Below, piece after piece: positions 14,790 to 26,515 of a stretch of DNA of 64,000 bases. Below the pieces are notes generated by a model that was given only the letters and a program-made list of their open reading frames with translations, made no database searches and had not been told where the DNA came from. Made by a program: the position numbers and the translations under genes. Source of the DNA: Candidatus Saccharimonadota bacterium (GTDB lineage: Bacteria; Patescibacteriota; Saccharimonadia; Saccharimonadales; Saccharimonadaceae); contig JAFWNB010000005.1 in assembly GCA_017545505.1 (NCBI GenBank), forward strand, positions 1-64,000, in the 5' to 3' direction. Within the stretch, counting starts at the first letter, position 1, and each line of letters starts with the position of its first letter.

Positions 14790-16496
14790 TTAGTACAAAT
14801 GTGATAAAATAAAGTGGCTTGGGGATTCGCCAAGTGGTAAGGCAGCGGGTTCTGGTCCCGCCATTCGGGGGTTCGAATCCCTCATCCCCAGCCATAAGGG
14901 TCGCTTAACGTCCAAAAGAAGCGTTTTAAATGGTTCTCTCGGTGTTAATTCGACTAAATTACCAGAAACTCGTAGGTTCGATAGTAGAAAACCGACGAGT
15001 CTTTTTTTATCTTCCGTTTCAGCTTGTTCGAAAATCCGATCCGCTCTCTCAAAGACATCTAACAGAGTTCCGACCGTATCATAGTAGTTCGAGTCGGCAC
15101 CGTCTAGTTTCTTTTCTTTTTGTTCGATTTCGGCAAGTTCCGCTTTGTAGCGCTTATTATTTTCGTTATAAAGGTCTAGAGTAATACTCTTGTCCATTAA
15201 GGCATCGTAGGCGTTCCTTTGACGCTCTTGTAGCTTCTTCCTGCGTCTTACAAGCTCTTTTCTTTCTGCATTATAGAAATCCGTTTTCTGGTTGTGCAGT
15301 TCAGCGAGCTCTTGGCGGAGTTCTTCTATTTTTTCGTCAGGTAGCTTCAATTGCCTAAGCACTTCGCGGATAGCTTCATCGATAACTTCCTCCTTAATAC
15401 ATACAATCTTCTCATGTTTATGTTTGGCGTTAGTACAGTGATAATACTTGAAGTGACTAACTTTGCCTGATTTGTAGCGTTTTGTCTTGAAATCTGGAGT
15501 ATAAGTACAACCGCAGTCCGCGCAAAGGATTAAGCCTCGATAAGGCGCGTCTGTTGAGCCGTCCAATCTTCGTCTCATAACTCTGTGTCCATCTAGCATA
15601 TCCTGAACTGCGTCAAATAGATCTGTATCTATTAAATGTTCGTAGTTATGCGGATAATAATCGCCAGTTTTTCGATCTAAAATGTAGCCTATATAGAATC
15701 TGTTGCGAAGCCAGCATTGAACGTTGCTAGATGCGATTCTAAGCCCATATTTGCGGTTAATATATCTAGTGAGTGTCTTAACCGAATAGCTCCCACTTGC
15801 GTAGAGCCGAAAAGCTTGCTTTACGATCGTGGCGTTAGGCTCGAGTGGGACAACGGTCTTAATCTTCGGTTTTAATTGAATAACCTTATGCTCATACCCG
15901 AAAGGTGCGCTCCATGGAAGCTCGCCGCGGTCTAGTTTGGTATATTTCGTATTGACGCCGTCTTCTTTGATGCGATTCAGGTATTCCTGAGCGACGAACA
16001 TCTTTACGTTCCAGTTAGTCAAGATGGCCGCTCGGCTATCTTTGCTAAGCTCTATATTCTCATCGACGCAGTGAATATGCTTGTCGTATTTTTGCATTAA
16101 CTCATCGATAAGTACGGCATCGCGAAAGTTCCTGGAAATACGATCGGCACGAAAGGCGATTAGATCTGTGATTTCTTCGTGATCGCGAAAATACTCTATC
16201 ATCTCATTAAAGCGCTTACGTTCCTTGTATTGTCCGCCAGTTTCGCCGACTTTGTATTCTTTGACGATATTTAAACCTTGCCTTGTGGCATAGTCTCGCA
16301 TTTTCGGGAGCTGGATTTCGTCAAGAGATAAGCCTTCTTTTTCCTGCCTAGCAGTGGAGACGCGTGCGAATAGAATTGCATTCCGTTTTATTGGCGGCTC
16401 TTCTGTAAAACTTTCAGGAAAGCGTCTAGATGGCGCCATGGCGCGTGAAGTGTTATTGAACCGATATTTTGGTTCGCTCATGTTATGTACAATCAT
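14790..16496 (-). CDS. Large serine recombinase (integrase of the tRNA-Gln element)
   Basis: 568 aa. The N-terminal resolvase domain (about residues 38-190) has the nucleophile Ser in FARVSTARQEKEG and the arginine-rich FRADRISRNFRDA. Next come a recombinase domain (APFGYEH..., LTRYINRKYGLR), a zinc ribbon (CADCGC ... YHC) and a long coiled coil (KIEELRQELAELHNQ to QKEKKLDG). It integrates and excises the element. The last ~35 residues (from about LWLGMRDSNPRM) are read from the opposite strand of tRNA-Gln and host flank, so this C-terminus exists only in the integrated state. An AAGG box lies 8 bases before ATG 16496. Confidence 0.92.
   Translation of the reverse strand: MIVHNMSEPKYRFNNTSRAMAPSRRFPESFTEEPPIKRNAILFARVSTARQEKEGLSLDEIQLPKMRDYATRQGLNIVKEYKVGETGGQYKERKRFNEMIEYFRDHEEITDLIAFRADRISRNFRDAVLIDELMQKYDKHIHCVDENIELSKDSRAAILTNWNVKMFVAQEYLNRIKEDGVNTKYTKLDRGELPWSAPFGYEHKVIQLKPKIKTVVPLEPNATIVKQAFRLYASGSYSVKTLTRYINRKYGLRIASSNVQCWLRNRFYIGYILDRKTGDYYPHNYEHLIDTDLFDAVQDMLDGHRVMRRRLDGSTDAPYRGLILCADCGCTYTPDFKTKRYKSGKVSHFKYYHCTNAKHKHEKIVCIKEEVIDEAIREVLRQLKLPDEKIEELRQELAELHNQKTDFYNAERKELVRRRKKLQERQRNAYDALMDKSITLDLYNENNKRYKAELAEIEQKEKKLDGADSNYYDTVGTLLDVFERADRIFEQAETEDKKRLVGFLLSNLRVSGNLVELTPREPFKTLLLDVKRPLWLGMRDSNPRMAGPEPAALPLGESPSHFILSHLY
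14820..14894 (+). tRNA. tRNA-Gln (anticodon CUG)
   Basis: Acceptor TGGGGAT pairs with ATCCCCA, then discriminator G and encoded CCA. Anticodon loop TTCTGGT gives CTG. The T-arm has GGTTCGAATCC. A TAAAAT box lies upstream at 14805-14810. The 3' end abuts the integrative element, and the gene stays intact, as is typical for tRNA-targeting elements. It overlaps the antisense end of the serine recombinase frame. Confidence 0.95.
14888..14895 (+). repeat. Candidate left attachment core of the tRNA-Gln element
   Basis: CCAGCCAT covers the tRNA-Gln 3' end. The same 8 bases occur at 29691-29698 in the gap before the next chromosomal gene. This fits the two ends of the element, though 8 bases alone are not proof. 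Confidence 0.4.
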
Positions 16497-18869: not shown

Positions 18870-19057
18870 CGAATAACGTTAAGACATACCTTGCCGGCAT
18901 TAGGACCACTCAAGTCACACCTAAGTGCTCAAAATGCAGAAAAAACTATGTAGGATATCCTGCGTTATCGCGCGAAGATAATGAGACAGAGATTTGTCCG
19001 GAGTGTGGAGTAAAGGAAGCTATTTTATGCTATTTGCGAAATCGTAAGCCTGTTTGA
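18866..19057 (+). CDS. Small zinc-ribbon protein
   Basis: 63 aa from ATG 18866, whose start overlaps the preceding TGA (ATGA), showing translational coupling. Two Cys pairs (CSKC and CPEC, about 27 residues apart) indicate one zinc ribbon. No enzyme motif. The 3' end overlaps the convergent nuclease gene by 38 bases. Confidence 0.65.
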   Translation: MTNNVKTYLAGIRTTQVTPKCSKCRKNYVGYPALSREDNETEICPECGVKEAILCYLRNRKPV

Positions 19058-19796
19058 CTAGCTTCATTATTTTCTCGATGTCATCAGTATTATAGATGTC
19101 GACCCTATAGTCTCCTTGGCCCCAATGTCCGAGATTAGAGATGTCATTGGTGATATTGTCAGGATCGTCGAGCGTTCCTCTCTTCATATTGAGCACCAAT
19201 TTAATGCATTGCTTATAGAGAATTAAATAGCAAAAGCTCTTTTCTCTTGAATTTTGAAAATTGATACACTGTTTCTTTGGGACAATACTTGTATTATCTA
19301 ATGCCGATATCTGGCGTTTCAATTCGCCGTACAGCATCTTTATGTCATCTGGCTTACTTTCTAGGTGATATTCTTCGGTAAATGATTCAGCCGACTTCGG
19401 CTTTCTCGACTTATGCTCGCTTGATACTGCAGTCTCTATTTGATCGTTAAGAAAAGGGTTTTCGTGACTTTCTTTTACTATCGTAATCTCGGCATCATCC
19501 AGGGTCATTGCACACTTTTCGAAAATGCTTAATGCTTTTTCTGGGGTGACGTTAAAAAACTCGCGACCCTTTCGTATGCGCATGCTAGGGTTAACTAAAT
19601 CAATAAGGTCATGTATTTGCTTTTCTGCCTCGTTATATTTCTCGGTCTTCATCACTGCGTAAATATCAAAAGGCAGTGGAACGGCAGTATTATCAAGCTC
19701 TTTAGAACGGACATTAACAGGCCTGGAACTCTTTCCTATTTTTACCCAATCATCCCTAAAACTAGGATTCGTTAGAATGTATACATATCCGCTCAT
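19020..19796 (-). CDS. T5orf172 / GIY-YIG-type nuclease-domain protein
   Basis: 258 aa. Residues 1-100 match the T5orf172 (MUG113) version of the GIY-YIG fold: SGYVYILTN...WVKIGKSSRPVNVRSKELDN, then AEKQIHDLI and REFFNVTPEKAL. The C-terminal ~150 residues are unlike anything I recognise. Such proteins are usual in phages and plasmids and may nick DNA or act in defence. The start lies about 40 bases from a TATAAT-like box in a divergent gap shared with hsdM. Confidence 0.8.
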   Translation of the reverse strand: MSGYVYILTNPSFRDDWVKIGKSSRPVNVRSKELDNTAVPLPFDIYAVMKTEKYNEAEKQIHDLIDLVNPSMRIRKGREFFNVTPEKALSIFEKCAMTLDDAEITIVKESHENPFLNDQIETAVSSEHKSRKPKSAESFTEEYHLESKPDDIKMLYGELKRQISALDNTSIVPKKQCINFQNSREKSFCYLILYKQCIKLVLNMKRGTLDDPDNITNDISNLGHWGQGDYRVDIYNTDDIEKIMKLVKQAYDFANSIK

Positions 19797-19998: not shown

Positions 19999-21558
19999 AT
20001 GAATAACAAAAAGGAGTCTGAGCGCGCAGAGCTACACCGCGCAATCTGGAACATCGCGAACGATCTTCGTGGCGCAGTTGATGGTTGGGATTTCAAGCAG
20101 TACGTGCTTGGAATGCTTTTTTATCGCTATATCTCCGAGAATCTGACCAACTACATCAATAAAGGTGAGTGGGATGCCGGTAATAAAGATTTTGACTATG
20201 CCAAGCTTTCCGACGAAGAGGCTGGTCAAGCTCGCCCAGAACTTATTACGACAAAAGGCTTCTTTATTTTGCCATCGCAGCTCTTCTGTAATGTTCGCGC
20301 CAAGGCTCCTTATGACGAGAACCTGAATGAAACACTTGAGAAGACTCTTAATGCTATTGAAGACTCCGCAAAAGGTACTGAGAACGAAGATGACATGAAG
20401 GGTCTCTTTGATGACTTTGATGTTAATAGCAACAAGCTTGGCGCCACAGTTGCAAAGCGCAATGAGCATATTATTCAGCTCATGGACGGCGTTGGTGATA
20501 TGAAGCTTGGCGACTATCAAGATAATACAATCGACGCATTCGGCGATGCTTACGAATATTTGATGGCCATGTATGCGTCAAATGCCGGTAAATCTGGTGG
20601 CGAATTCTTTACTCCGCAAGAAGTTTCAGAACTCCTAACGAAGATTGCAACTCATGGCAAGAAAGAGATCAATAAGGTTTACGATCCAGCTTGTGGCTCC
20701 GGCTCGCTTCTTTTGAAGTCTGCCAAGATTCTTGGCAAAGATAACGTTCGTAACGGTTTCTTTGGTCAGGAGATTAACATCACGACTTACAACCTTTGTC
20801 GCATCAACATGTTCTTGCACGATATTGACCCAGACAAGTTCGATATTGCGCTTGGTGATACCCTAAAAGACCCAGCGCACTGGGATGAGGAGCCATTTGA
20901 GGCTATTGTTTCTAATCCGCCTTATTCTATTCACTGGGAAGGCTCTGAGAATCCGGTCCTTATTAACGATCCGCGCTTTTCGCCAGCTGGCGTACTCGCT
21001 CCGTCTAGTAAGGCTGATCTCGCTTTTGTAATGCATTCGCTTTCTTGGCTTGCTTCTAATGGTACAGCCGCCATTGTTTGTTTCCCAGGCGTGTTTTATC
21101 GCGGTGGCGCCGAGAAGAAAATTCGCAAATATTTAGTAGACAATAACTTTATCGACTGCGTTATCCAGTTGCCTGATAACTTATTCTTCGGTACTTCTAT
21201 TGCTACATGTATTCTCGTCATGAAAAAGAATAAGGTCGACAATAAGGTCCTATTTATTGATGCTTCTAAGAATTGCGTGAAAGTAACGAACAATAACAAG
21301 CTTCGCGATGCGGATATCAATAAGATTGTAGAAGAATACGCATCTCGTAAAGAAATCGAGCATGTTACGCATCTAGCGACATATGAAGAAATTGAAGCGC
21401 AAGACTTTAATCTCTCGGTTTCTACTTATGTAGAACAAGAAGATACTCGCGAGAAGATTGATATTAAAGTGCTGAACGAAGATATCTCGAAGATAGTCGA
21501 AAAAGAGAATAAGCTTCGCGCTGAGATCGATAAAATAATCGCAGAAATCGAGGGCTAA
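19999..21558 (+). CDS. hsdM: Type I restriction-modification DNA methyltransferase subunit (type IC)
   Basis: 519 aa, close to EcoR124I HsdM (520). The N-terminal domain has [18 protein letters not shown]. The methyltransferase domain has SAM motif [15 protein letters not shown] (about residue 225) and the catalytic NPPY in [14 protein letters not shown] for N6-adenine methylation. It is first in the operon, with AAGGAG upstream. Codon use leans to CGC/CTT more than in flanking chromosome genes, which suggests transfer. It works as M2S with HsdS, or as R2M2S for restriction. Confidence 0.95.
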
Positions 21559-21559
21559 G

Positions 21560-22738
21560 ATGAGCAAGCTTGAGAACTTAATTAAAGAAAAATGTCCGAA
21601 TGGAGTTAAGCGCCTTCAGATTGGTGATATATGCGAAGTCCTGACCGGCGGTGAGGCTCCTGCAGAATCTATAAAAGCTAAGAATCCAGATGGCGAATAT
21701 ATTTATCCTGTTTACTCTAATGGTGTAGGCGATAATGCTATATGGGGTTATGCAAAAACATACCGCATAAATCGACGCGCCGTCACTTTTTCTTCGATTG
21801 GAACAATAGGATGTCCTACCCTAAGAGAACCTAATTTTACACCAATCATCCGTCTGAAAGTTTTATATCCCAACGATAAAAACTTGGTTACGGTTGAATA
21901 TATTAAGTATGCATTGGAAACTATTGAGTTCGAATCTCAAAAATCATCAGTTCCCAATGTTAACGCTGACATGATCAAAAGAATAAGAATTCCAGTTCCG
22001 CCATTAGAAATCCAAAACGAAATTGTCCAGGTATTGGACAATTTCGCGGAGCTTACAGCGGAGCTTACAGCGGAGCTTACAGCGGAGCTTAGCAACCGCA
22101 AAAAACAATACGAATACTATCGCGACCTACTTCTTAACTTTGACAAAAATGAGCAGAGAGAGAGAGAGAGAGGAGTAAGATGGGTTTCTATAGAGGATAT
22201 TTGCGAAATTTCGAGGGGCTTTGTTATGTCTAAAGACTTCATTAGAGACAATGCCGGTGAATACCCGGTCTATTCGTCTCAGACCGAAAATAACGGCATA
22301 CTTGGCTGTATAAATACGTATAAATACGACGGAGATTATTTGACTTGGACGACAGACGGCGCAAACGCCGGTACTGTTTTTAGACGGTCTGGCAAGTTCA
22401 GCGTAACAAATGTTTGCGGATTACTAAAAGTCAAAGATTCGACTGTTAGTAATGATTATCTTTATTATATTCTTTCTAATACAGCCAAGAATTACGTAAA
22501 CAGTGGTATGGGTAACCCAAAGTTAATGAGTAATGTAATGGCTAGAATTAAGGTTCCAATACCAGATAACAAAGAGCAGCAAAGAATAGTTGACGTTTTG
22601 GATAGATTCAATAAACTCACATCCGATATTTCCGAAGGTCTCCCGGCCGAAATTGAGGCACGCGAAAAGCAATACGCTTACTACAGGGACAAGTTGCTTT
22701 CATTTGAGGAACAGAAAGTAGAGGCAGTAAATGCTTAA
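21560..22738 (+). CDS. hsdS: Type IC specificity subunit with TAEL spacer repeats and an (AG)9 tract
   Basis: 392 aa. Target-recognition domain 1 (about 1-150), central conserved region (about 150-200), target-recognition domain 2 (about 205-355) and C-terminal conserved helix (EARxKQYxYYRDKLLSF, as in the central YEYYRDLLLNF). The central region reads FAEL-TAEL-TAEL-TAEL: residues 163-177. In EcoR124I the number of TAEL units sets the spacing between the two halves of the DNA target. Immediately before domain 2 lies (AG)9 (22155-22172); losing one unit ends translation after 223 residues, gaining one after 206. It starts one base after hsdM. Confidence 0.95.
   Translation: MSKLENLIKEKCPNGVKRLQIGDICEVLTGGEAPAESIKAKNPDGEYIYPVYSNGVGDNAIWGYAKTYRINRRAVTFSSIGTIGCPTLREPNFTPIIRLKVLYPNDKNLVTVEYIKYALETIEFESQKSSVPNVNADMIKRIRIPVPPLEIQNEIVQVLDNFAELTAELTAELTAELSNRKKQYEYYRDLLLNFDKNEQRERERGVRWVSIEDICEISRGFVMSKDFIRDNAGEYPVYSSQTENNGILGCINTYKYDGDYLTWTTDGANAGTVFRRSGKFSVTNVCGLLKVKDSTVSNDYLYYILSNTAKNYVNSGMGNPKLMSNVMARIKVPIPDNKEQQRIVDVLDRFNKLTSDISEGLPAEIEAREKQYAYYRDKLLSFEEQKVEAVNA
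22046..22090 (+). repeat. 12-bp tandem repeat coding for TAEL units in hsdS
   Basis: GCGGAGCTTACA repeated three times without mismatch plus nine bases of a fourth copy. The unit is a multiple of three, so copy-number change keeps the frame and lengthens or shortens the helical spacer. Confidence 0.97.
22155..22172 (+). repeat. (AG)9 dinucleotide tract in hsdS
   Basis: Nine perfect AG units inside codons 199-204 (QRERER). Dinucleotide tracts of this length commonly slip in replication. Both alternative frames reach a stop quickly: at GAG-TAA right after the tract, or at 22239-22241. Confidence 0.97.
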
Positions 22739-23402
22739 CCCGATTGATTTTCTTCACAACAAAAGGCCAAAGGAAGGATACTTATTGGATCCTCAAAGGG
22801 TTAATGAGGAAATAATTAATATTCTAGACAACGAAGATTCGGAATGGACGCCAGAAGTTAGTAAGCACTTCACGCTTCTGAATAGACTTTATTGGTCATT
22901 GTCTATCCTGGATACAATTGATGATTATTCAGATTATTCAGAAAATGATATCCTGACATTCTTTGTTGCTTTTAGTGCATTCTGCGATATTATTGAACTT
23001 TTTGATACTTTCGAAGTTACCGGCTCAAAAGAAGACATATTCAAAGAATCAAAGACGGAACCGATCTTTACCGACGATATTATTAACGACAGGAGCGACA
23101 AAAGCTTTGTGAGCTTTATTAGGTCGCTCTCGTTTGCTCATACTACTGGAGTTAATAGAGGCGGAAAATTCCTTAAAACAAACACTTGTACTTTCGTCTT
23201 ATCGTCGATAGATATACAAAGTGCAACTCCAACTAATGAGGAAATCGCAAAGAAGCCTAAAGCATTTTATTTTCATGTTTTATTGCTTAGAAATGGACGA
23301 AAGAGCAATCAGATCTTTAAGTTGTATATTGATGAATTGAAAGTATACATGCAGAGCTTATTCGAGAGCTGTAATCTCGAAAAAATAAAGGAGACAAAAT
23401 GA
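22731..23402 (+). CDS. Unknown accessory protein of the type IC operon, at the PrrC position
   Basis: 223 aa. It overlaps hsdS by 8 bases and hsdR by 4 (ATGA), so it is part of the operon. I do not recognise the family with certainty. The N-terminal half is acidic and helical (LLNRLYWSLSILDTIDDYSDY). The segment SFIRSLSFAHTTGVNRG contains R-x5-H, which fits the RX4-6H signature of HEPN ribonucleases; this is only a motif-level hint. In EcoprrI the hsdS-hsdR gap holds prrC, an anticodon nuclease held silent by the restriction complex. This protein is shorter than PrrC (about 396 aa) and has no P-loop, so it is not a PrrC homologue. Confidence 0.7.
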   Translation: MLNPIDFLHNKRPKEGYLLDPQRVNEEIINILDNEDSEWTPEVSKHFTLLNRLYWSLSILDTIDDYSDYSENDILTFFVAFSAFCDIIELFDTFEVTGSKEDIFKESKTEPIFTDDIINDRSDKSFVSFIRSLSFAHTTGVNRGGKFLKTNTCTFVLSSIDIQSATPTNEEIAKKPKAFYFHVLLLRNGRKSNQIFKLYIDELKVYMQSLFESCNLEKIKETK

Positions 23403-26400
23403 GTAGATTCAATATCGTTGTCGAGAGTAGTGAGGCTACAGTGGTAGCCGAATATACTCCGTCTCCAAGAAAAGCCGATTCATATCAAAGTGAGGCGGAG
23501 CTTGAGAAAGAGTTTATCCGTAATCTTGAGGATCAAGGCTATGAGTATATCAAGATTGGCTCCGAGGCTGACCTTATTGGAAATCTTAGAACTCAAATTG
23601 AGAAGCTGAATGACTTCATGTTTAGCCAAAGCGAGTGGTTTCGTTTCTTCAACGAGTATATCGCTCGTCCAGGTGATTCTATCGAAGATAAGACTAACCG
23701 TGTCCAGGTGGATAATGTTTGTAGCTTCCGTTTAGATAATGGTTCTACGAAAAATATTAAAATTATCGATAAGAAGAATATTCATAACAACTCGCTTCAG
23801 GTTATTAATCAGTACGTCGAAGAGTCTGGAGCGCGCGACGTGCGTTATGACGTCACAATACTAGTAAACGGTCTACCTATGGTCCATACCGAGCTTAAAC
23901 GCCGCGGAGTGGCCTTAAAAGAGGCATTTAACCAGATCAAGCGCTACGATCGTGATTCATTCTGGGCTGGCTCTGGTTTGTATAACTATGTCCAGGTGTT
24001 CGTGATCTCGAATGGTACCGAAACAAAGTATTACTCCAATACTACGCGTAGTTCTCATATTAAAGAGCTTTCTGGTGAAGGTCGCAAGAAGAGCAAGCGT
24101 ACTAGCAATAGTTTTGAGTTCACATCCTACTGGGCTGATGGCAATAATAAGATTATTCCTGATCTAATTGATTTCACAAAAACATTCTTCAGCAAGCATA
24201 CGCTTCTCAATATTCTGACTCGCTATTGCGTCTTTGATTCCGACCAGAAACTCCTAGTAATGCGTCCATATCAGATTGTCGCTACAGAGCGTATTTTGAA
24301 TCGTATCGAGATTTCTACTAACTATAAGACACTAGGCTCGACTGATGCTGGTGGTTATATTTGGCACACAACTGGTTCCGGTAAAACTCTAACTAGCTTC
24401 AAGACCGCATTGCTCGCGACTCAGCTTCCTTATATCGATAAGGTTCTATTCGTCGTGGATCGTAAGGATCTAGATTATCAGACGATGAAGGAATACGACC
24501 GCTTTGAAAAAGGCGCGGCTAATGGCAATAATAATACCCATATCTTGCAATGCCAGCTCGAAAATAGAGACCCTAAGACTGGTGCTACTCGTGATTATAA
24601 GATTATTGTTACTACTATTCAGAAGCTTAGCGTCTTCATCAAGAAGAATCCTCAACACGAAGTCTACAACAAGCATTGCGTAATTATCTTTGATGAATGT
24701 CATCGCTCGCAATTTGGCGACATGCATATGGATATTACTAAGCATTTCAAGAATTACAATCTCTTTGGCTTTACTGGTACTCCTATCTTTGCCGAAAATG
24801 CCGGCTCTAGCTCAAATCCACAGCTAAGGACAACTGAGCAAGCCTTTGGCGATAAGTTGCATACATATACCATCGTTGACGCTATTAATGATAAGAATGT
24901 CCTACCATTCCGCATCGATTATCTTCAGATGATGCATTCCAAGGAAGGTATTGCCGACGCCGATATTCCAGCTATTGATCGCGAACGTGCAATGATGGAC
25001 CCTCGTCGTATTACTGAGGTTACTAAGTATGTCCTGGATCATTTTGACCAAAAGACCAAGCGCAGTTTCTATTACGATTACCGCAAGGTTGCAAATATTT
25101 CTGAAAGCATTCTGCATCGCGGCGCCGAAGAAAAGATTACGACTAAGCTAAATGGCTTCAACTCTATCTTTGCGACGTCGTCTATTGATATGGCAAAGCT
25201 TTACTATAACGAATTCAAGAAGCAACTCGCTGAGAGCGGCAGAAAGCTTAAGATCGCTACCATATTCAGCTTTGCAGCCAATGAAGATTTAGACGATACT
25301 AGCGGCTTTATGGGTGATGAAGATGTAGATACCTCTACGCTCGACCAGTCTTCGCGCGACTTCTTGGATTCCGCTATCGCTGATTACAATAAGATGTTCA
25401 GCGTAGATTACGATACTTCTTCTGATAAGTTCCAGAACTATTACAAAGACGTCTCAATGCGTATGAAGAACCGCGAGCTAGATCTTCTTATCGTCGTCAA
25501 TATGTTCTTGACCGGTTTTGATGCTACAACTCTTAATACTTTGTGGGTGGATAAAGATTTGAAGATGCACGGGCTTATTCAGGCATTTTCTCGCACGAAC
25601 CGTATTTTGAATTCAATTAAGACCTACGGTAACATTATTTGTTTCCGTAATCTTCAAGATAAGGTAGACGACGCAGTTGCTTTGTTCGGCGACAAAGAAG
25701 CTAGTGGCATTGTGCTTCTGAAGACCTTTGGTGAATACTTTAATGGCTACGACGAATCTGACGGCAAGCACGTTGATGGTTATACCGACTTAATCAATAA
25801 GCTTAGTGAAAACTATCCAGTGGGAGAGCGTCCAATTGGTGAAGAAAACCAAAAAGAGTTCATTAAGCTATTTGGTAAGATTTTGCGTCTTCGCAATATC
25901 TTGCAGTCATTCGACGAATTCGCTGAGCAAGATATCTTAACGCCGCGTGATTTACAGGACTACCAGTCTGTTTATCTTAATCTGCGTGACGAGTTACGTC
26001 CAGAGACTCCCGATAAAGAAGTTATCAACGATGATCTCGTGTTCGAAGTTGAACTTATCCGCCAGACCGAGGTTAATGTTGATTACATTCTCGCTCTCGT
26101 CGTTAAATATCATGATAGCCACTGTGAAAATAAGGAAATCCTTGTTGATATCGACAAGGCCGTTAGCTCCAGCCTTGAGCTTCGTAGTAAGAAGGAGCTT
26201 ATTCACGAGTTTATTAGAACCTACACTAACACCGGCGAGGAGATTCGCGATACATGGCAGAAGTTTGTTAATGTCGAGCGCGAAAAAGAACTTAACTCTA
26301 TTATTGAAGAAGAAAACCTTAACTCTGACGAAACTAAAAGACTTATCTTGAACGCATTCCGCGATGGCGTTATGAAGACGTCCGGAACTGATGTTGATCG

Positions 26401-26515
26401 TATTATGCCAAAAATGAGCCGTTTTGGTGCCGCTGGCGCTCAACGTAATGAAAAGAGAAACGGCATCATTGCTAAACTCGTATCATTCTTTGATAAGTAT
26501 TTCGGCGCATACTAG
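23399..26515 (+). CDS. hsdR: Type IC restriction subunit (endonuclease and DNA translocase)
   Basis: 1,038 aa, the same length as EcoR124I HsdR as I recall it. The PD-(D/E)XK nuclease has Asp151 (RYDVTIL), Glu165 and Lys167 (HTELKRRG); these numbers equal the ones I remember for EcoR124I. The helicase core has Walker A HTTGSGKT, the DECHR box (IIFDECHRSQFGD), FTGTPIF (motif III), and motif VI in QAFSRTNRILNS. A helical C-terminal region follows. It pulls in DNA past the bound HsdM/S complex and cuts when translocation stalls. It is last gene of the operon. Confidence 0.96.
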   Translation: MSRFNIVVESSEATVVAEYTPSPRKADSYQSEAELEKEFIRNLEDQGYEYIKIGSEADLIGNLRTQIEKLNDFMFSQSEWFRFFNEYIARPGDSIEDKTNRVQVDNVCSFRLDNGSTKNIKIIDKKNIHNNSLQVINQYVEESGARDVRYDVTILVNGLPMVHTELKRRGVALKEAFNQIKRYDRDSFWAGSGLYNYVQVFVISNGTETKYYSNTTRSSHIKELSGEGRKKSKRTSNSFEFTSYWADGNNKIIPDLIDFTKTFFSKHTLLNILTRYCVFDSDQKLLVMRPYQIVATERILNRIEISTNYKTLGSTDAGGYIWHTTGSGKTLTSFKTALLATQLPYIDKVLFVVDRKDLDYQTMKEYDRFEKGAANGNNNTHILQCQLENRDPKTGATRDYKIIVTTIQKLSVFIKKNPQHEVYNKHCVIIFDECHRSQFGDMHMDITKHFKNYNLFGFTGTPIFAENAGSSSNPQLRTTEQAFGDKLHTYTIVDAINDKNVLPFRIDYLQMMHSKEGIADADIPAIDRERAMMDPRRITEVTKYVLDHFDQKTKRSFYYDYRKVANISESILHRGAEEKITTKLNGFNSIFATSSIDMAKLYYNEFKKQLAESGRKLKIATIFSFAANEDLDDTSGFMGDEDVDTSTLDQSSRDFLDSAIADYNKMFSVDYDTSSDKFQNYYKDVSMRMKNRELDLLIVVNMFLTGFDATTLNTLWVDKDLKMHGLIQAFSRTNRILNSIKTYGNIICFRNLQDKVDDAVALFGDKEASGIVLLKTFGEYFNGYDESDGKHVDGYTDLINKLSENYPVGERPIGEENQKEFIKLFGKILRLRNILQSFDEFAEQDILTPRDLQDYQSVYLNLRDELRPETPDKEVINDDLVFEVELIRQTEVNVDYILALVVKYHDSHCENKEILVDIDKAVSSSLELRSKKELIHEFIRTYTNTGEEIRDTWQKFVNVEREKELNSIIEEENLNSDETKRLILNAFRDGVMKTSGTDVDRIMPKMSRFGAAGAQRNEKRNGIIAKLVSFFDKYFGAY

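Follow-up and report, generated by a model that had tools for sequence, protein, structure and literature searches.

What would a single hsdS gene gain from carrying two slippage-prone repeats, an in-frame array of 12-bp units and, shortly downstream of it, a run of AG dinucleotides? The gene lies in the 64 kb stretch of Saccharibacteria DNA analysed here (hereafter the window; its genome is G000), where hsdM, hsdS and hsdR occur together and the HsdR subunit carries the EcoR124-type C-terminal domain that marks the EcoR124 family. On these domain matches the locus (19999–26515) is a type IC restriction-modification system of that family. The 392-aa hsdS product matches Methylase_S twice (the second match covering residues 209–367), among solved structures its sequence is closest to the EcoR124 S subunit (7bst, E 8e-33), and an AlphaFold2 model built with 54 homologues (pLDDT 89.7) resembles known HsdS structures, including 7bst and 5ybb, in a structure comparison.

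Table 1. Features of the type IC locus in the window and the second AG-bearing methyltransferase gene of the same genome (TRD, target recognition domain; CR, conserved helix).
Feature	Position	Strand	Basis or remark
HsdM, type I adenine methyltransferase, 519 aa	19999–21558	+	N6_Mtase E 2.1e-115; HsdM_N E 5.9e-20; TIGR00497 hsdM E 1.4e-224
HsdS, 392 aa, ON state	21560–22738	+	Methylase_S x2; 7bst E 8e-33; model pLDDT 89.7
TRD1, about residues 1–146	21560–21997	+	AlphaFold2 secondary structure; G053 N-terminal domain differs
CR1, central conserved helix, residues 149–192	22004–22135	+	single long helix in model
TAEL array, 12-bp unit GCGGAGCTTACA x 3.83, in frame	22046–22091	+	spacer-setting repeat; residues 163–178 AELTAELTAELTAELS
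(AG)9 frame-switch tract, CR1–TRD2 linker	22155–22172	+	about residues 199–205; relatives with tract at same place
TAA stop ending the 206-aa (AG)10 product	22176–22178	+	recomputed frames
TRD2, about residues 207–334	22178–22561	+	model; Methylase_S 209–367
TAA stop ending the 223-aa (AG)8 product	22231–22233	+	just 3' of in-frame ATG codon 223 (22226)
CR2, second conserved helix, residues 337–379	22568–22696	+	model
223-aa protein ORF, overlaps hsdS stop	22731–23402	+	no family match
HsdR, type IC restriction subunit, 1038 aa	23399–26515	+	EcoR124_C E 1.8e-68; HSDR_N; SWI2_SNF2; TIGR00348 hsdR
EcoRI-type adenine methyltransferase (L032)	G000:C5:2121-3215	minus	PF13651 E 2.9e-120

Both repeats fall at telling places in the model. 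Residues 163–178 (AELTAELTAELTAELS) hold three TAEL units, and the array lies inside the long helix 149–192, as the tetrapeptide repeats of the EcoR124 family lie in the central helix. An initial annotation of this DNA had named the gene an HsdS with TAEL spacer repeats, which the EcoR124_C domain of HsdR, the paired Methylase_S matches and the helical position of the units bear out; the array itself, described there as 3.75 copies at 22046–22090, is present but extends over 3.83 copies (22046–22091). Its (AG)9 at 22155–22172 in the same gene was confirmed on recounting; no other dinucleotide tract in the window reaches seven units, and an order-1 Markov model predicts about 8e-7 tracts of that length. 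In the model the AG-encoded residues (about 199–205) form a linker ahead of the first TRD2 strand (207–210), and confidence across linker residues 193–206 is low relative to the surroundings. As the tract sits in the linker behind helix 149–192, a frame change drops TRD2 and CR2 and keeps TRD1 and the whole helix; the truncated products had indeed been expected to retain only the first target domain and the central helix, which in the model ends at residue 192. Recomputed frames give 390, 392 and 394 aa for (AG)6, (AG)9 and (AG)12, and reproduce the lengths foreseen on loss (223 aa, (AG)8) or gain (206 aa, (AG)10) of one AG. The gene thus has a slippage-prone tract between TRD1–CR1 and TRD2 whose frame changes leave a roughly 200-aa half subunit (206 or 223 aa) with TRD1 and the helix entire, which is the anatomy of NgoAV-type genes. 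Also inside CR1 is a 13-bp inverted repeat, GAAATTGTCC..GGACAATTTC (22017–22047), largely kept in near relatives, which is perhaps a coincidence of codons or else a recombination site for domain exchange.

A third TRD downstream of hsdS was considered and rejected: the next ORF (22731–23402) had no match in Pfam, PADLOC or NCBIfam, and the window gene therefore has two TRDs only. G135 has a counterpart of this ORF, G438 carries a different gene in its place, and G053 lacks it. On the other side of the operon, a T5orf172/DUF5655 protein (19020–19796) matches the PADLOC PDC-S57 candidate defence models, and genes that look similar lie between hsdM and hsdS in G144, G042 and G107. Beside the restriction-modification island, the 3' end of a large serine recombinase gene (14790–16496) overlaps a tRNA-Gln gene on the opposite strand (14820–14894), which is the likely integration site of the island; a duplicated tRNA-Gln end marking its far boundary was sought in the 64 kb window and not found. 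A scan of viral contigs found no relatives of the window HsdS.

The reading we favour, with a probability of about 65%, is a phase-variable type IC system of the NgoAV type, in which half subunits have a palindromic target and the TAEL copies set the gap. Replication slippage in the AG tract would flip the hsdS reading frame, and such errors would probably go unrepaired, the lineage appearing to have no MutS/MutL. With (AG)6, (AG)9 or (AG)12 the full HsdS would be made and a bipartite target recognised; with (AG)8 or (AG)10 we infer, from the behaviour of known relatives, a half subunit of TRD1 and the complete helix that should dimerise and, by the same analogy, mark a palindromic target made from the TRD1 half-site. 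Changes of the TAEL array by one in-frame unit, up or down, are expected to be rarer than AG slippage and should shift the gap between half-sites by one base, as in comparable enzymes. Since HsdR works with the same HsdS, restriction would change along with protection. The comparison with NgoAV and EcoDXXI had been made in the initial annotation and is supported by the shared anatomy.

The same arrangement could instead be a plain ON/OFF switch, in which (AG)8 and (AG)10 give dead products and the linker houses the tract simply because extra residues are tolerated there when the gene is ON. Judging from the model, the low-confidence linker 193–206 would accept Arg-Glu insertions, and ON/OFF switching is the commonest behaviour of hypermutable methyltransferases (PMC7394358); not all HsdS halves work, H. 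pylori TRD1 alone being inactive (PMC3936762). Halves of the same type IC design are, however, active in the three published cases, NgoAV, EcoDXXI and EcoR124I (PMC3874165, PMC9577141). A survey of 98 anchored type IC HsdS loci also speaks against a mere shut-off; as best matches to one query region these form a biased sample, and fractions of them are not population frequencies. Strict simple repeats were present in 31 of the 98 loci, 32 repeats in all, and every one lay at one of two joints: site 1, +28 to +45 nt, after CR1, or site 2, +558 to +671 nt, after CR2 (P about 1.6e-27 under uniform placement; 34 of 37 at looser thresholds). None of the 98 loci had a strict repeat inside a TRD or helix, or in the TRD1 half of the gene, though an ON/OFF switch would work there too. 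The units at these joints include AG, GA, AC, G, GACA, AAGC and GCAA, among others, and the hosts are Clostridia, Selenomonads, Erysipelotrichales, an archaeon and Saccharibacteria; that 13 of the 15 site-1 loci with sequence beyond the tract are ON counts against the favoured reading. The confinement of all strict slippery tracts to two HsdS joints argues for selection on a change of specificity, not on shut-off alone, and we regard a plain ON/OFF switch as rather unlikely.

Close relatives show that both tracts vary in nature. A related HsdS is encoded in 9 of 174 congeneric genomes, and the same joint carries (AG)6 in G053, G135, G438 and G265 (all ON), (AG)7 in G081 (OFF), and a poly-G run in two more, (G)9 in both G192 (ON) and G241 (OFF). 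In a DNA alignment of five species, substitutions are scattered and indels are almost confined to the TAEL array (one unit, missing from G053 and G438 relative to the window) and the AG tract, whose counts, the window included, are 9/6/6/6/7, a variation between species. Four of the five are ON. G081 goes OFF exactly at the AG joint, beyond which TRD2 continues as an open sequence in a different frame, by which we read its (AG)7 as a natural truncated state of hsdS; another frameshift close to the 3' end of this gene means that the OFF state may instead reflect decay. The HsdS ORF of G053 is complete (an apparent internal stop comes from a match running beyond the gene end) and shares nearly the same TRD2 with the window, with a different TRD1, so domains are also exchanged. 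Slippage is credible from these tract differences, which come from comparison between species.

MutS and MutL domains were sought in G000 (94% complete) and not found, and a search for the MutS domain in 60 genomes of the genus, G000 included, returned 0 of 60. Mismatch repair thus seems to be missing, by which slippage would be raised. That the tracts are static remnants, inherited low-complexity sequence with no meaningful rate of slippage, could be argued from (AG)9 spanning just 18 bp, yet is highly improbable given AG counts of 6/6/6/7/9 amid nearly identical flanks, the gain and loss of TAEL units, the different units (AG, G, GACA, GCAA) that other lineages carry at this joint, and the mismatch-repair domains that were not found. 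Least credible of all is that (AG)8 yields both halves, the 223-aa half plus a TRD2 half re-initiated at ATG 22226 that could restore two-domain recognition: the stop TAA within ATGTCTAA does lie just past this ATG, with GAGGGG upstream, and separate EcoDXXI N and C halves restore wild-type activity (PMC3874165), but a start at codon 223 loses the first TRD2 strands (residues 207–222 in the model), so that the TRD2 half would probably be misfolded.

With NgoAV-type switching as our preferred account of the window gene, the second joint points to a further outcome in its relatives. Every site-2 locus whose sequence continues beyond the tract has a third TRD and helix there. They are fused in frame in L052, L105, L112 and L113 (600–637 aa; three Methylase_S stretches were confirmed in L052 and L112) and out of frame in L051, L067, L079, L091, L103, L129 and G144, and L010 is also listed with a tract after the second HsdS helix followed by a third target domain. 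A stop cuts off the upstream TRD1 in G057, the third domain itself is broken in G169, and contigs L069, L102, L121 and L125 end in or beside the site-2 tract. A 577-aa HsdS-like ORF with no detected slippery tract (L124:3069–4799) may be a fixed longer HsdS. We found no description of slippage control of a third TRD in the open-access literature.

AG tracts of at least six units are missing in 150 of 174 congeneric genomes; G000 has two, in hsdS and in the gene for an EcoRI-type adenine methyltransferase, where a single (AG)9 allows three possible C-termini according to frame. The same enzyme in six Saccharibacteria species (L028, L032, L034, L041, L043, L166) has an AG/GA tract of 6–13 units interrupting the C-terminal module; whichever of the three frames is read leads to its own alternative copy of that module, usually ending ...YxRIxIxxK, and the frame occupied by the gene differs between genomes. 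From its reading frames the tract looks like a three-way specificity switch, and we infer that the alternative C-terminal segments recognise DNA; short peptides in H. canadensis offer a precedent for C-terminal switching (PMC2823697). Elsewhere, in L020, L023, L026, L030, L035, L038 and L040 of several congeners, AG tracts read SLSLSL from the other strand, within or close to the signal-like stretch at the N-terminus of large, secreted proteins of surface type; this is probably surface phase variation. In L021, L022, L031 and L042 they lie in or at genes for FemAB-like, transporter-like membrane, metalloprotease-like and putative N6-adenine methyltransferase proteins, names assigned by eye.

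Taken together, slippage at the joints of target-recognition modules could be a general specificity switch that has been recruited repeatedly, giving half, full and three-domain forms of type IC HsdS and, from one AG tract in the EcoRI-type enzyme, three frames each with its own probable target segment, such that a Saccharibacterium with no detectable mismatch repair would move among several methylomes without a recombinase; we offer this as a tentative generalisation, at somewhat less than even odds. The window locus would extend slippage-driven restriction-modification switching to the Saccharibacteria, which are ultra-small and apparently lack mismatch repair, and for which we found no paper on phase variation in the open-access literature; with it, variation of phage defence in Patescibacteria can be tested in long reads that are already available. 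Relative to that literature, the newer points are the placement of tracts at two joints, the probable slippage control of a third TRD and an EcoRI-type enzyme with three possible outputs.

The pairing of both mechanisms in one HsdS, which had been thought unusual, is not new. NgoAV of Neisseria gonorrhoeae, also type IC, has central tetrapeptide repeats (LEAT) and a slipping tract just downstream in one gene, and its truncated half HsdS is 201–208 aa against about 400 aa for the full protein (PMC6789123, PMC9577141). Its methylomes gave three motifs, GACN6TGC with one LEAT at full length, GACN7TGC with two, and GCAN8TGC when truncated with two (PMC6789123), and it has been described as a phasevarion controller (PMC9577141). 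Among 80 distant type IC loci, likewise best matches to one query region and a biased sample, the 12-bp repeat occurs in 70, and in 20 it is accompanied by a slippery tract. The window HsdS differs from NgoAV in its phylum and in having (AG)n in place of poly-G. Slippage-prone repeats like those of the window gene are reported in 7.9% of REBASE hsdS genes, a figure of Atack et al. 2020 as cited in PMC7394358. H. pylori JHP1422 is a three-TRD HsdS from which one subunit yields two motifs (PMC3936762), and its third TRD resembles that after the site-2 tracts, although no slippage control of it is reported and the window gene has two TRDs. For EcoR124I, EcoR124II and EcoDXXI no frame-shifting simple repeat is described and the truncations were artificial or made by Tn5, but they share with the window HsdS the type IC organisation and TAEL repeats in the same helix, and in EcoR124 two or three TAEL copies give a gap of six or seven bases (halves and spacing, EcoDXXI included, are reviewed in PMC3874165).
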